NCBI GenBank assembly: GCA_031265955.1
Contig: JAISBY010000010.1
Location: forward strand, 124,001-188,000
Length of the DNA: 64,000 nucleotides
Reading direction: 5' to 3'
Source of the DNA: Mycoplasmataceae bacterium
GTDB taxonomy: Bacteria > Bacillota_I > Bacilli_A > Mycoplasmatales > Mycoplasmoidaceae
Shown: positions 14,179 to 48,897 of the stretch, one piece after another
Layout of the letters: every line of letters begins with the position of its first letter
How positions within the stretch are numbered: position 1 is the stretch's first letter
Notes under the pieces: model-generated
What the model saw: the letters and a program-made list of their open reading frames with translations, nothing else
Databases searched by the model: none
Told to the model about the DNA's origin: nothing
Position numbers and translations under genes: made by a program

Positions 14179-16140
14179 CTAAATTTCAATTCCCTTTTTA
14201 AATTGAGAATTGTACAGTTCAGCATAAAAGCCGTTGCGTTTAATTAAATCATTATGGTGCCCTTGTTCAACAATTCTGCCGTGATTAATGACGAGAATAT
14301 TATCGGCATTTTTAATGGTTGATAAACGGTGAGCAATTACAAATGAGGTTCGTTCTTTCATTAATTGATTCATCGCTCCTTGAATTTCCATTTCAGTTTT
14401 AGTATCAATTGAAGATGTCGCCTCGTCTAAAATAACGATGCGAGAATTGGAAAGAAAGGCTCTGGCAATCGCTAATAATTGCCGTTGTCCTTGTGATAAA
14501 TTGCTGCCATTATCTTCAAGCACAGTGTCATAACCTTTTGGCAATTGCATAATAAAATTGTGAGCACGCGCCATTTTAGCTGCTTTTATCACATCATTCC
14601 TAGAAGCATCTAATCTACCATAATGAATGTTTTTGTATATGGAAGTACTGAATAGATAAGTGTCTTGTAAAACCATAGTAATATTCTTACGAAGGCTCTC
14701 ACGTTTAATTTTTTTGATAGAAATACCATCAATTTTTAAATCACCATTAGTAATTTCATAAAATTTTGTAATCAAATTTACAATTGTAGTTTTTCCAGCG
14801 CCTGTCGGCCCAACCAACGCTACTACCTGCTGTGGTTTAACGTGAAAATTTACATTCTTCAATACAGGCTTGCCGGGAATATAACTAAAATCTAAATGTT
14901 CGGCTTCCACTAATCCATATACCTCTTTTAATTCTTTAGCATCCGGATCATCTTGTTCAATTGGTTCCTTTAAAACCTCTAAAACACGTTCAGCTGAAGC
15001 TAAAGCTAAGAATAGAGAACCTAAAGCTGAAATCATTTGGTTAATTGGGTTGTTCAAATTACGAGCACATAGCGTGAAAATAATTAATAACGAAGTTTTT
15101 TGGATTAAACCAATTGCTTCTGGTGGAATATCATATGTTGGATCGTACACTCAACTCGGTGGATCAAAATGAATTAGACCTCAATTGACGCTAATTCATC
15201 CGTCGTTATGGGCACCACCTTTGAACATTCCAAAAGCACCAATTGCTGCAAGAATTACGAATGACATATTGTTCATGAAGATGTTAATTGGCATCAACAT
15301 ATTAGTAGTGGCTTGCGCAACAATAGAGTTTTTAGTTAAATCTTTATTTAATTTAGCAAATACCGCTTCCGTTTCATCTTTCATTTTGAACAAAGAAATA
15401 ATTTTTAATCCTGAAATATTTTCTTCAATAAAACCATTTAATACACCTAAGCTTTTTTGTTGTTTACCAAAAAAAGGTTTAACTTTTTTCATAATCAAGA
15501 TATTAATTACTAAAAAAATTGGAATAAGTACAATGGCGAATAATGATAATACCGGATTGATGAAGAACATTAATACTAACATTGTGATAATCATAAAAAT
15601 TCAATAAAAAATATTTCCTAAATATTGAGACAAAGCTTGTCCGATATTATCAACATCATTAATTGTCCGAGACATAATATCGCCAGAAGGAGTGCGGTCA
15701 AAATAACCGATAGGCATATTATTTAATTTTGAAAACACAGCATCCCTGAGGGTGTAGCTACCACTTTCCGATAATTTTAATAGTAAGTATGATTCCAATC
15801 AGTTAAAAGCATTAGAAACCAAATATACAGTCAACAATCCAACGCACAACCAAACGAAAGACACTAAGCCGAAAACAGTGTAATTTATTGGTGGTATTGG
15901 TGAACCTGCTTCATGAGAACCAGTAATAAAAGCCGAAGGAATAATGTACTTACAATAAATAAATCCATTTAACAAAATGGCCGAAGTTGCAGCAAGTCCG
16001 CCAATCAATGACAAGATAACGGCAACAACGAATAATTTCTTGTAGTTACGGTAGTAAAAAGATAATTCGCGAATAGTTTTTTTAACATTAACTGGTTTAT
16101 TACTTAACTTAGTAACACTTCTAGGTCCCATCGGTGGCAT
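14179..16140 (-). CDS. ABC exporter half-transporter with canonical ATPase site
   Basis: A 653-residue type IV ABC exporter: an N-terminal six-helix membrane domain (about residues 30-370) and a C-terminal ATPase domain. It has Walker A GPTGAGKTT, signature LSQGQ, Walker B IVILDEATSS with catalytic Glu, and switch AHRLST. It is partner to the upstream gene (16140-17930), whose ATP site is degenerate; the pair matches heterodimeric exporters of the LmrCD/TM287-288 type, where the second subunit often carries LSQGQ. Start and stop overlap as TAATG. It is likely a multidrug or lipid exporter. Several TGA codons encode Trp. Confidence 0.9.
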
Positions 16141-17930
16141 TATTCGAACCCTCCTTTTCCCAATTGTGATTCAACAATTTGTCGGTAAACATGACTAGTT
16201 TTAATTAACTGTTTGTGTGTTCCCATTGCTAAAATTTTTCCGTTTTCCAAAACTAAAATCTTATCAGCATTTTTAACTGATGAAATTCGCTGACTAATAA
16301 TGATTTTGGTTATTCCCTTGTAATTTTTTTGCAAATTACTTTGGACACGAGCTTCGGTAAGTAAGTCTAAAGCACTAGTCGTGTCATCCAATATTAATAT
16401 ATTCGGCTTCTTGATTAATGTTCGTGATAAAGAAATTCTTTGTTTTTGTCCGCCAGAAAAGTTACGACCTCTTTGTTCAACGACACTATTAAATTTCTTT
16501 GGTAGCTTACTAATAAAATCTCAACTGCATGCATTAATTGATGCTTTCTTCATATCAGCTAATGTTGCATTTTGTTTGCCGTATTTTAGATTACTTTCGA
16601 TTGTTCCAGAAAACAACAGAGCTTCTTGTAGTACGACGCCAACATTATCACTAATATCATTTCGTGAAATATCTTTAACGTTCACGCCACCTATTTTAAT
16701 AGAACCTGAATCAACATCATAAAATCTCGGAATCAAATTAGCGATAGTTGATTTGCCACTACCAGTTCCACCTACAATTCCCAACATTTGTCCAGATGGA
16801 ATTTCAAAACTTACATCATTTAATGCATATGCTTTGGCTTTTTTATTGTATTTAAATTTGACATGATCAAATTGTAACGAATGGTCATTATTTAATTTAA
16901 GTAACTTATTACTATCTTTGATAGTTGGTTCAGTGTCTAATACAGCATTAATACGTTTAATTGATGCCATGGTTCTAGTCGTATTGACAATTACGAAAAC
17001 TGCAATCATGGAAGAAAATAAAACAATCGCAATTAACTGTGTGAAAGCGTAAATGCCAGCATTAATAGGTGTATGACTGCCGTTCACAAAAATAATGCCG
17101 GCAACCATTAGAATAATAACAATACTAGCATTTAAGAGAAATTGAATGACACTCATTACAGGCAGCATTAAAGCTTGGCCACGAATATTGTATTTTTTTA
17201 GTTGGCGATTTTGTTCGTCATATCTTTCGTGTTGATTGGTATGAATATTGAATGCTTTGATTACTCGAGCACCCAAAATGTTTTCACGCATAATCGTATT
17301 AGTAGTATCCAATTTTGTTTGCGCATTGGTAAATATCGGTAGAACTCTCAAACCAATGATAGCGATTACGGTCAACATTAGTATTACAATTCCAATTGTA
17401 ATACAGCCATAAGTAACATTACCCATTGGCGGAGTAAAAGCGTTGATAAGACTTATGGTGATGGTTACGGGCGCTCTAAATAACATTGTGAAAATCATTT
17501 GTAAATTAATTTGGTGTCGTTGCACATCGTTTGATAACCTTGTGATCAATGAAGCGGTAGAAAATTTATCAACTTCATAGAATGAATAAGACATAACTTT
17601 TCCATACATCGCTTGTCTTGTGTTCATAGCAGCGTATAAAGCGGCTGCTGAACCTAAAAAGGAACCACACAATCCCAATATTAACGATGATCCAGCGTAT
17701 GCTGACATCATAATTACCGATGGCCAGAAGCACCAATATGTATTTCCATCTAAAGTTCATTGTCACCCACCAGAATCACCTCATCATTTATTTTGTGACA
17801 GGGAAGTTATGGCGTCGTTTAAAAATGTGGGTTGAGTGGCATCAAAATACGCTGCACCAACAACGCAACAAATGCCGATGATGGTTAGTATTAAAGCTTT
17901 TCCTTTGATATAACGTGCGAGTTTAAACAT
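16140..17930 (-). CDS. ABC exporter half-transporter with degenerate ATPase site
   Basis: A 596-residue ABC exporter subunit, membrane domain then ATPase. Walker A is GGTGSGKST and the signature NFSGGQ is intact. Walker B reads NILILDDTTS, with Asp replacing catalytic Glu, and the switch His is Gln (ISQRISS). These two changes mark the non-hydrolysing site in heterodimeric exporters. The start ATG 17930 overlaps the MarR stop by eight bases, so translation is coupled to the regulator; a longer frame from 17969 lies entirely inside marR and is less likely. The transported substrate is unknown. Confidence 0.88.
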
Positions 17931-18393
17931 TTTTAATATTTTCAACCTCGGTGTAAGCAATGTTAGCAATTTTTTCTAACAGAAATGTTAACTGTTCTAA
18001 TTCTTTTCGACTTAACTTATTAATGATAGACCTATATCATTTATGAATTATTCTTAGCTTTCTTAAAAAATTTAATTCCCCAGACTTAGTTAAAGATAAA
18101 TTGACTTTTCTTCCGTCGTGAGAATCTTTAGTCATATGAATGTATTTTTTCGATTCTAGCGTTCTTAGAGTTTTTGCTACCATCGGAGTTGTCATATGGA
18201 AATGTTTAGCGATTAAAGAAGGTGTCACAGGTTCTTGCCCTCCCCCCCCCATATGTCCGTGGCGAGCAATGTATCCTAAAACATTAAATTCTGCTCCTAT
18301 TTTAGTATTACGAAGAGCACGTTTGATTTTAATTAAGGAAAAGAATATTTTTTTGTTCAATACCGAACCTAATCATCATTTGTGAAAATCCAT
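17923..18393 (-). CDS. MarR-family transcriptional regulator with G9 tract
   Basis: A 156-residue winged-helix regulator. The HTH is SLIAKHFHMTTPMVAKTLRT (residues 59-78), followed by a wing with SHDGR. It is the first gene of the operon with the two ABC exporter genes, the usual arrangement for a local repressor of a drug exporter. The start at ATG 18393 has AAAGGG 13 bases upstream; an internal TTG at 18360 is less likely. Nine consecutive G encode most of Gly49-52, immediately before the DNA-binding helices. A change of one G would truncate the protein before the HTH, so the gene is probably phase-variable. Confidence 0.88.
18242..18250 (-). repeat. G9 tract in marR coding sequence
   Basis: Nine C on the plus strand (nine G on the coding strand) starting at the G of an ATG codon. 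It is in frame in this sequence. Confidence 0.8.
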
Positions 18394-18593
18394 AATATTG
18401 ATATTCCCTTTCTAAATTGCTAACTTGGTTAGGTATTATATAGTTAAATGAAATATTTGAATGAAAATTTAAAAATTTTTTAAATAAAAGATGATTAATT
18501 TTGCTTACTTCCCCCTATAATACTAAAAATAAATCTGAATCTACTGTATTTTTATGTTAAGTAAATGTTTTTTAAACAAAGGAATTAATCATT
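18394..18593. promoter_or_regulatory. Divergent intergenic region marR / rnjB-like
   Basis: 200 bp between two divergent starts. On the plus strand TATAAT at 18516-18521 is the likely -10 for the RNase J-like gene, giving a leader of about 65 bases with AAGGA before the ATG. The AT-rich left half should hold the marR promoter; I see no clear operator palindrome. Confidence 0.45.
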
Positions 18594-37400: not shown

Positions 37401-37421
37401 GGGGGGGGATAAGGTTATAAT
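37401..37421 (+). promoter_or_regulatory. Promoter with G8 tract in the spacer
   Basis: TATAAT at 37416-37421 is the likely -10 of the ABC-2 operon. Eight consecutive G (37401-37408) lie seven bases upstream of it, inside any normal -35/-10 spacer. No clear -35 is seen. Length change of the tract would alter spacing and promoter strength. Confidence 0.6.
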
Positions 37422-37433
37422 GAAAAGCGACTA

Positions 37434-38156
37434 ATGAGAGATATTTGAGTTGTATACAAATTTACTATTAAAAGTCTATTTCAGCGAATGAGTACTTATG
37501 TAATTTTATTTTGTTGATTATTTATTACCGCCTTTATATTCTTTATTATTCCGACAATTTTGCCTGCTATTAATATTGCTTTATTCTATAGTCAGCCAGC
37601 ATGATTAACAGTTATGTATCCCGCTTCTGTAATTTTAACAGCATCATTGGCAGCCGTAATTAGCGAATGTGTTGTAAATAAACCAAAAATGATTTATCTA
37701 GTGACTAAGCAATTTTCTCGTGGTCAATACTTATGAAGTCAATTTTTAGTTTCTTTAACAATTTTACTATGTTATGTATTAATAGTTTTTATGTCATTTT
37801 TTGGAATTGATCAGTATCTAATTAACACACACCAAGGTCATTTATTTTGAAGTGGGGTTTATTGATACGGAATTTTAATAACATTGATTATTTCTATGTT
37901 CTTAGGTTTGAGCGCAGTTTTTTGACATTTGCATATTAAAAACGGAATAAGTACATTGATTCTATTTGCATTAACAGCTATTTTTATTTTTTTATTCCCT
38001 ATGATTTGGTATGTTGATAGCACAGAAGACACAATTGTTGATCCTCATCGATTATGGTTTACTTTCTACGGACCATTGTGTATTTATTTACCTTTAACAA
38101 TTTTACTTTATAGCAATGGAATTATTTTTTTCTTGAAGAAAAGAATTAATATATAA
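37434..38156 (+). CDS. ABC-2-type transporter permease
   Basis: A 240-residue membrane protein with about six hydrophobic segments and a cytoplasmic N-terminus (MRDIWVVYKFTIKSLFQR), the usual form of a small ABC-2 permease. It is followed two bases later by an ATPase gene, supporting the assignment. Many TGA codons encode Trp. The substrate is unknown; the following lipoprotein and YhgE/Pip-like genes suggest a cell-surface role. The short gap of 12 bases between TATAAT and ATG leaves almost no leader. Confidence 0.75.
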
Positions 38157-38158
38157 GC

Positions 38159-38836
38159 ATGGCGAATATTTTAGAAGTTAAAAATTTAAACTACACAATT
38201 GGAAAAATAAAAATTCTGGATAATGTAAATTTTTATATACCTTCTGGCAAAATTTGTGCATTCTTAGGTAGAAACGGAGCAGGAAAATCTACTACCATCA
38301 AATGTATTTTGGGATTAATTAGAAATTATGATAACGGGGGGGGGATTACCTGTAACGGCGAATTTGTCTCTTCTCCAGTAGTTCGTAAATTCATCGGATA
38401 TGTTCCGGAAAATGATGCATTACCAAAGATGTCTGCATTTAATTTTTTATTAGAACAAGCTATGTATATTGGATTAAGTCGGAACGATGCAATCAAACAA
38501 ATTAAATGTTTATGTAGAGCGTTTGATTTTTCTTATGATCGTTTGCAGATTTCAACAAATCATTTTTCTTCTGGAGTAAAAAAGACAATTATTTTAATCC
38601 AATCTTTGCTAGGTTCACCCAAATTAGTTATTATGGATGAGCCAACTTTGAGTTTAGATTTTGAGACTCGTTTGCTATTTTATAAATTAATCACCAAACT
38701 AAAACACAAAGGTATCTCTTTTTTTATTTCCACTCATAATCTTTTTGAAATTAAAAATTTTGCCGACTGATATGTTTCTATCAAGGATGGTAGAATTACT
38801 AATATTGGCACTAAAAAATTAAAAATAAAATCATAA
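38159..38836 (+). CDS. ABC transporter ATP-binding protein with G9 tract
   Basis: A 225-residue ABC ATPase of the ABC-2/drug type. Walker A is GRNGAGKST (residues 37-45), Walker B LVIMDEPTLSLD and the switch His is in STHN. The signature is altered to HFSSGVKK instead of LSGGQ. Nine G encode three Gly (residues 60-62) in the loop between Walker A and the Q-loop region; a one-base slip would truncate the protein. It pairs with the permease at 37434. One TGA encodes Trp near the end. Confidence 0.88.
38336..38344 (+). repeat. G9 tract in ABC ATPase gene
   Basis: Nine consecutive G forming three in-frame GGG codons. Confidence 0.85.
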
Positions 38837-47253: not shown

Positions 47254-48897
47254 ATGAAACAAAAATTAAAATCATTTTTAATTCCTATGAGTGCTTTAAG
47301 CGCAATTACCATTGGAGCCATGCCTTTAATATCTTGCAGTTCGGCATTGAATCAATTGGTCGCAAAACTCAAAAAACATCCTGAATACCAAGGAACAGAA
47401 CTGCAATTCAATAGTTATGCAAATGTCCCTAGTTACACTGTTCATACACATTTAGATGAATTAGTTAGTCAACTAAGACCAGTTTATACAAGTGAAGATC
47501 AATTGGATGCATTAATTGAAAATAAAACTGATTATTCCATTAAAACTGAAACAATTAACGGTAATACTTTTATTCCGGCTGCCGACAACTCAGAAGGTTC
47601 TGGCACAAATTATGATGCCGTTTGAGTGCGTGATAGTATTTGAGGATATTATGGTTTGTTATCGCAACAAAAATATACCGATGCTAAAAATGTTTTATTA
47701 ACTCAATTGAAATATTTTACCTCAGAAGCACAAATGGAAAGGATGGAAAAGGATGTTACCAATCCTAATTTAGTGTTAACTGACAAGAACGGACAAATGA
47801 ACGCTGTTCACATTCGTTTTAATGCAAAGTCACAAAATTTTGATGATGTCTATGAAAATGGGCAACCTCAACCATGGAATCATAAACAAAATGATGCACT
47901 AGGATTAGTGCTATAAGCGTTAAGCGATAATTTGAGTGGTAAAGAAGATGCGAGTGCGACAATTGGAATGACAGATTTGGATGATAATAACATTAAAGCA
48001 ATGATGTATTTGATTGAGTATTTGTATAAAATCAAATTTTGATCAATGTAAGACTCTGGAGCTTGGGAAGAATTACAACGTTTAAATACATCATCAGTCG
48101 GTATAGTTACATCGGCTATTCAAAGCTTTGTAGACAACAATTCTGATTTTCCAACTGAGTTTTGAAACAAATGAAACGCTATTGCAACTGGTGATTCTAA
48201 TTTAGCTGATTTAGGCGAAACCCATCGCGCAGTAACATTTGAATCCATGTTGACTAATGGATATGCACTAATTAATCAACAAATTGATATGGGAGGCGAA
48301 TCACCAAATTATGGTGAAAACGATAAACGTTACCGTACTGCAGATGCAGCACTATTAACTTTAATTTATCCATGTAAACATTTAGACGTAACCAAGTTTC
48401 CTATGATTCAAAAAGAAAAGATATTCGGCATTGTAAATACGTTAAATACTGAATGAGGAGTAAAACGTTACAATAACGACACCTATCAATCTGGAAATTA
48501 TTGATTTAATAGTATTCCAACTGATACAAATGATTCAAGTATCGCTAGCCGTAATAAAAATTTTATTGTTGGCAGCGAAGCTTCATGATTTTTCGATAGT
48601 TGAATGACTAAGGCAGCCATTTTATTATCGCAGGGGGGGGATATTTCAAATAAAGCCTTGTATTTGTCATATGCCACAATGCATTTTAATAAGACTATGT
48701 CTTTTATCAACAGACCATCACTATATGGGAACGGTAAAGAATGTTCTGGTAATTCATTGCCAGAGAGCTACAATGTTATTGCTACAAATAAAGACTGATG
48801 GCATCTCTCTAGTCCGATTGATCCATTAAATTGAAGCAAAAGTTCTTTTAGTTTAATGAAAGAAGACATTAACGCAATAATCAATTTTATTAGTTAA
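47254..48897 (+). pseudogene. Broken GH15-like (glucoamylase/PhK-like) lipoprotein gene
   Basis: One reading frame of 548 codons carries a lipoprotein signal (LISCSS near residue 28), WVRDSIWGYYGLL, QNDALGLVL, DSGAWEELQR and HLSSPIDPLNW, typical of (alpha/alpha)6-barrel GH15/phosphorylase-kinase-like enzymes. It is interrupted by two in-frame TAA codons (47914-47916 and 48049-48051), at positions where Gln (LQALSD) and Glu (EDSGAW) would be expected. The remaining 280 codons stay open, and the G8 tract is in frame. GAGG lies eight bases before the ATG. It is a recently inactivated gene, or contains sequencing errors. Confidence 0.75.
48633..48640 (+). repeat. G8 tract in GH15-like gene
   Basis: Eight consecutive G encoding the QGGD region, in frame with both the upstream and downstream parts of the broken gene. 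Confidence 0.8.

Follow-up and report, generated by a model that had tools for sequence, protein, structure and literature searches.

A G9 tract in the marR gene of an ABC exporter operon, a probable slippage switch in an uncultured Mycoplasmataceae bacterium rich in poly-G tracts

Introduction

The AT-rich genome of Campylobacter jejuni carries a poly-G phasome, in which G tracts of at least 8 number in the tens and form a class. That lineage is unrelated to the bacterium described here, in which many tracts lie in the signal peptides of lipoproteins, in promoter spacers, and in conserved leaders. Closer systems have been described in Mycoplasma. The P68 of M. bovis has 8-10 G, and nine G is the ON state that gives the complete protein, whereas in M. 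agalactiae polyG occurs in the 5' regions of spma and in p48-like (PMC2824730). Poly-G phase variation was also described for gsmA (PMC12103780) and a CpG methyltransferase (PMC9465063) of M. agalactiae, and Ca. M. girerdii has a methyltransferase controlled by a G8 tract (PMC5476646). Like the locus presented here, these poly-G loci belong to Mollicutes and hold G8-G11 within coding sequence or in a 5' UTR, where the frame decides between a full-length and a truncated product. However, their targets are lipoproteins, a glucan synthase, and a methyltransferase, whereas the tract described here, one of ~67 in its genome, would act on a putative local repressor of exporter-operon transcription.

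In Neisseria meningitidis, the MarR-family repressor NadR and repeat slippage combine to vary the expression of NadA (PMC2791445). There, the repeat sits in the target promoter, whereas here the slip would take place inside the MarR gene. The exporter itself resembles the TM287/288 heterodimeric ABC exporters (PDB 3qf4) in its tandem half-transporters with one degenerate ATP site; unlike TM287/288, it is preceded and overlapped by a tract-bearing marR. Our literature search, which fell short of most subscription journals, turned up no earlier account of a phase-variable MarR gene that controls a mollicute exporter. The mechanism is known, and what appears to be new is the target (marR), the convergence, and the large scale.

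Materials and Methods

The source genome (G000) comprises 980,658 bases in 11 contigs with 32% G+C. The window is the whole 64-kb stretch of DNA that was analysed (contig C3:124001-188000), and positions without a contig refer to it. Run statistics were taken from 815 kb (83% of the genome) read base by base, and the remainder was covered by pattern search. Expected run counts were calculated with a first-order model. Coding tracts, 44 in total, were those located in ORFs of 100 aa or more, and their coding state was judged by ORF length at tract lengths of -1, 0, and +1; a codon-score test was dropped because 120-nt flanks gave too little sensitivity. For marR, five congener orthologues upstream of the same exporter were compared (G042, G045, G024, G019, and G005). 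The evidence read from the sequence comprises the tract, its frame effects, the operon, the palindrome, the membership in a genome-wide class, the recurrence in orthologues, and one out-of-frame orthologue.

Results

The G9 tract and the marR gene

The genes of the window are open solely with TGA read as Trp, which identifies the source as a mollicute, and the marR reading frame is itself open only under genetic code 4. The original prediction placed nine G in the marR coding sequence just before the HTH, and the sequence agrees, with the difference that the start given there (18238) adds the preceding CCC-T to the run at 18242-18250. The features of the locus are listed in Table 1. The tract begins with the G of the ATG at codon 48 and runs through the first two bases of codon 51, and codons 48-52 read ATG GGG GGG GGA GGG. 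The MarR domain scored above the curated cut-offs of two Pfam families (PF12802, 28.9 bits against 27; PF01047, 27.2 against 24.6), and the product matched MepR with an E of 1e-8. The tract ends 2-3 codons ahead of the Pfam MarR match, which covers residues 53-97. In the MepR alignment, an insertion of ~6 residues, probably a loop, lies immediately N-terminal of the tract-encoded stretch.

Table 1. Positions of the marR-exporter operon and of further G tracts in the 64-kb window.
Feature	Position	Strand	Basis or remark
G9 tract (C9 on + strand)	18242..18250	-	marR codons 48-51; assembly in frame
marR, MarR-family winged-helix regulator, 156 aa	17923..18393	-	ORF in code 4 (TGA=W), Pfam, MepR match
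ABC exporter half 1 (ABC_membrane + ABC_tran), degenerate ATP site	16140..17930	-	TM287 chain E 2e-99
ABC exporter half 2, canonical ATP site	14179..16140	-	TM288 chain E 4e-142
8-nt overlap ATGTTTAA, exporter start / marR stop	17923..17930	-	candidate translational coupling
-10 box TATAAT, marR/exporter operon	18435..18440	-	by eye; same place in orthologues
Putative MarR operator CTAAC-N3-GTTAG, at expected transcription start	18420..18432	-	palindrome, between -10 and start codon
G9, codon 59 of ABC-transporter ATPase	38336..38344	+	in frame here
ABC-transporter ATPase bearing that G9	38159..38836	+	PF00005 78.9 bits
G8 just 5' of a TATAAT, ahead of membrane-protein gene 37434-38156	37401..37408	+	sequence
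G8 in ORF 48247-48897, in frame	48633..48640	+	sequence

In-silico slips of 1-2 bases showed that the tract length switches the full-length marR product on and off by reading frame. With slips of -2, -1, +1, and +2, the marR frame stops at codons 61, 59, 62, and 60 of 156, respectively. The claim that a one-base slip truncates the regulator was confirmed by the -1 and +1 frames. After the +1 slip, a 115-aa ORF from another upstream frame would rejoin the 3' part of marR, and a short MarR remnant is conceivable.

The operon, its promoter, and a candidate operator

The marR gene heads an operon and is followed by two ABC half-transporters in tandem, which form a heterodimeric exporter, as had been claimed; it is a drug-type exporter and resembles TM287/288. 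The ATP site of half 1 has the Walker B LILDD and a Gln in place of the H-loop His (SQR), while that of half 2 has VILDE with the H-loop His present (AHR). The closest solved relatives of the halves include TM287 and TM288, and TM288 is the best solved-structure match of half 2. The claimed overlap between the exporter start and the marR stop was found as well, with the exporter ATG at 17930-17928 and the marR stop TAA at 17925-17923, and the same arrangement is present in G042 and G024. A plasmid similarity search gave zero matches, and a first scan for the exporter protein detected no encoded relative in any named genome covered. A later alignment-based scan for the exporter found relatives only in assemblies of other species ('Mycoplasmataceae bacterium').

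Upstream of marR, a TATAAT is followed by CCTAACCAAGTTAG. The promoter consensus scan returned none on the marR strand, despite this box being seen by eye and conserved, with TATAAT or a close match at the equivalent position in the orthologues of G042, G024, and G005. Directly 3' of the box lies CTAACCAAGTTAG, which has a single copy in the window. The palindrome CTAAC-N3-GTTAG was found once in 64 kb against 0.03 expected, and TAATACCTAAC occurs a single time in 815 kb of the genome. Half-sites similar to those of the palindrome follow the -10 upstream of marR orthologues. The promoter palindrome fits a local autorepressor, as expected, and MarR would be the protein that binds it.

The G tracts as a genome-wide class

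Long G runs had been regarded as rare in this AT-rich genome, a statement that did not hold, because the whole genome contains 67 G/C runs of 8 or more and these constitute a class. The explanation that G runs are simply rare in the source genome was rejected on this count. Of G/C runs of length 9, 25 were observed in 815 kb against an expectation of 0.13. For lengths 6, 7, 8, and 10, the same 815 kb yielded 3, 11, 31, and 5 G/C runs, whereas the first-order expectations were 26, 4.4, 0.75, and 0.02. The distribution of lengths is bimodal, with few runs of 6 and many of 8-9. The G9 in marR is therefore far from chance, yet it is not rare in its host genome. A/T runs behave in the opposite direction, as 10 runs of 9 were seen in 815 kb versus 116 expected, and runs of at least 9 are far under expectation. 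Among Gly codons, GGG is the least used (8.7%), as is CCC among Pro codons (8.2%).

The tracts are located in lipoprotein signal peptides, gene 5' ends, promoters, and leaders. Twenty-five of the 44 coding tracts lie within the first 60 codons, which make up 16.9% of the coding length (P 2e-9), and lipobox-like signals were found in 12 of the 44 tract genes against 62 of 698 background genes (9%). Fifteen of the 44 were out of frame, that is, the ORF was longest only after the loss or gain of one base; this number is approximate, as at least two are promoter or leader tracts, and part of these states, which come from metagenome assemblies, could be consensus errors.

The ratio of runs of 9 or more to runs of exactly 6 was 32/3 in this genome, 36/9 in G042, 30/9 in G024, and 41/11 in G002, in contrast to 0/16 and 1/19 in the tract-poor congeners G004 and G013. 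The tract-rich state is thus patchy across the genus. MutS (PF00488) was detected in none of 36 congeners, in a search whose control was positive in 11 of 14 genomes. Missing MutS may permit the tracts; however, it went unseen in tract-rich and tract-poor congeners alike, so its absence does not explain the patchiness.

Tracts in the marR orthologues

Three of the five congener marR orthologues carry a run of 8 or more, each at another codon. The marR of G042 has a G8 at codon 6 and that of G045 a G8 at codon 33, both in frame, whereas that of G024, with a C9 at codon 86, is out of frame and gives 90 aa. The orthologue of G019 contains only a G6, and no long run was found in that of G005. Under uniform placement at each genome's own tract density, at least three hits in five orthologues have P ~5e-5, where the gene had been picked for its tract in the first genome and that genome is not among the five. 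With the density raised 3.4-fold for 5' ends, the same test gave P 1.7e-3. Since the tract codons differ between orthologues, the gains are independent, and the marR tracts are, as read from their positions, a convergent gain at four codons in four species. In G021, G001, and G006, the exporter is kept and no MarR relative was found, which indicates that the regulator is dispensable in some lineages.

These data bear on the reading that the tracts are neutral baggage of slippage, whereby G runs lengthen by drift without MutS, the placement in marR is incidental, and selection keeps only the frame. Such a history would agree with the undetected MutS of the genus, and with 67 tracts in the genome, one in a small gene is not improbable by itself. 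Nevertheless, drift of this kind sits poorly with A/T runs whose lengths in this genome fall short of expectation, with congeners that likewise lack a MutS match and have few long G runs (G004, G013, and G040), with the concentration of coding tracts at 5' ends and lipoprotein signals, and with the independent tract gain in three of five marR orthologues. We regard neutral baggage as unlikely.

An event at the RNA level, with the polymerase slipping during transcription or the ribosome shifting at the G run, would supply every cell with full-length and truncated MarR in fixed proportions while the DNA stays unchanged. For the p48-like polyG of M. agalactiae, ribosomal shifting has indeed been discussed as a possibility alongside mutation (PMC2824730). 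A purely RNA-based mechanism does not need the DNA itself to be out of frame, as it is in the G024 marR and in 15 G000 genes, and the tract position is unconserved among orthologues; this explanation seems improbable to us. A homopolymer artefact, a miscounted G or a poly-G read artefact, is the least credible, for although metagenome assemblies can miscount homopolymers and many G042 tracts lie near contig ends, the nine G of marR are in frame and encode an intact MarR, the tracts show no strand bias and are limited to some species of the genus, and most coding tracts are in frame.

Other tracts and side observations

The marR orthologues of G045 (L086:988-1500) and G019 (L084:1025-1504) encode a very His-rich loop before the DNA-binding helix, e.g., NHEHGHHHIAPHHCSGHHH, which suggests a metal-sensing MarR in these two species. 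Seven G042 tract proteins, MarR included, match a G000 tract protein at ~45% identity or more.

Another transporter locus of the window carries two tracts, a G8 beside the -10 of the gene for its membrane protein and a G9 within the ABC ATPase gene (Table 1). In the G042 orthologue of this ATPase, the same site holds a G8, and the gene is out of frame. Elsewhere in the genome, tandem paralogues at C3:454976-461416 (L066) carry C8, C9, C10, and C8 near codon 40 in mixed phases, and they likely represent an antigen-like array.

A conserved leader family was also found, with 23 copies in three species, ~120 nt upstream of lipoprotein or secreted-protein genes. Its members consist of TATAAT, 6-10 nt, an ATGCAA-type start, G7-G10, AGTGC-loop-GCACTAATTTAATC, and TTCTCTAAAAACAAGA. 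The G tract is in the 5' UTR, possibly inside a tiny leader ORF. The copies in G000 are located at C3:38816, C3:337481, C3:379493, C3:387503(-), C3:240046(-), C5:77268, and C2:68279(-), and those in congeners at G042 loci L136-L166 and G024 loci L120, L122, and L128. Additionally, many G042 leader promoters have an extra C tract in the spacer that separates the -10 from a -35-like TTATCA, for example L150:13142-13188, L163:2019-2067, L145:2023-2082, and L161:4136-4181. In these two-tract promoters, one tract would be transcriptional and the other lies in the leader.

Discussion

The G9 in marR is probably a contingency locus at which slippage deprives a random subset of cells of a local autorepressor. 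The original prediction of a probable phase switch gains support from the genome-wide tract class with 15 of 44 coding tracts out of frame, the tracts of the orthologues, the undetected MutS, and the promoter palindrome. The homopolymer is slippable, a change in its length switches the product, and relatives occur in other lengths and states, as one assembly of the source species compared with assemblies of other species reveals: the G024 marR is out of frame at C9, and the ABC ATPase is in frame with G9 here and out of frame with G8 in G042.

We infer slippage in vivo, repression by MarR, and the exporter response as a sequence of steps. As the DNA replicates, the G run would gain or lose a G at a high rate, in a lineage for which we detected no MutS mismatch repair. 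In cells with nine G, the full-length MarR would bind the palindrome over its own transcription start and repress the marR-exporter operon. In cells with eight or ten G, translation would stop at about codon 60 and leave the DNA-binding helices incomplete, so that repression would be lost and the operon mRNA would rise. The exporter output would then be set by its reliance on ribosomes arriving from marR through the 8-nt stop-start overlap, and a compensating slip would restore the nine-G state. The translation of the truncated marR would end ~280 nt upstream of the exporter start, which may weaken coupling, and the lost coupling could cancel the derepression. The net outcome that we expect is exporter ON, perhaps damped, with low confidence in the size of the effect.

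On a larger scale, we lean, with only modest assurance, towards an uncultured Mycoplasmataceae clade that runs a poly-G phasome of ~40-70 tracts per genome. This phasome would repeatedly recruit the local exporter repressor at new codons, with an inverse logic in which a slip turns the exporter on, and would include a surface-protein leader family with a G tract ~20 nt after the -10, some members having a second C tract in the promoter spacer.

If true, the marR tract would place efflux under random, heritable on/off control by way of its repressor, in a minimal bacterium that has very few regulators. The independent gains at four codons in four species would make selection for switching, beyond tolerance, directly testable. 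The finding would also single out a group of species whose metagenome reads can be used to track poly-G phase variation across the whole genome.
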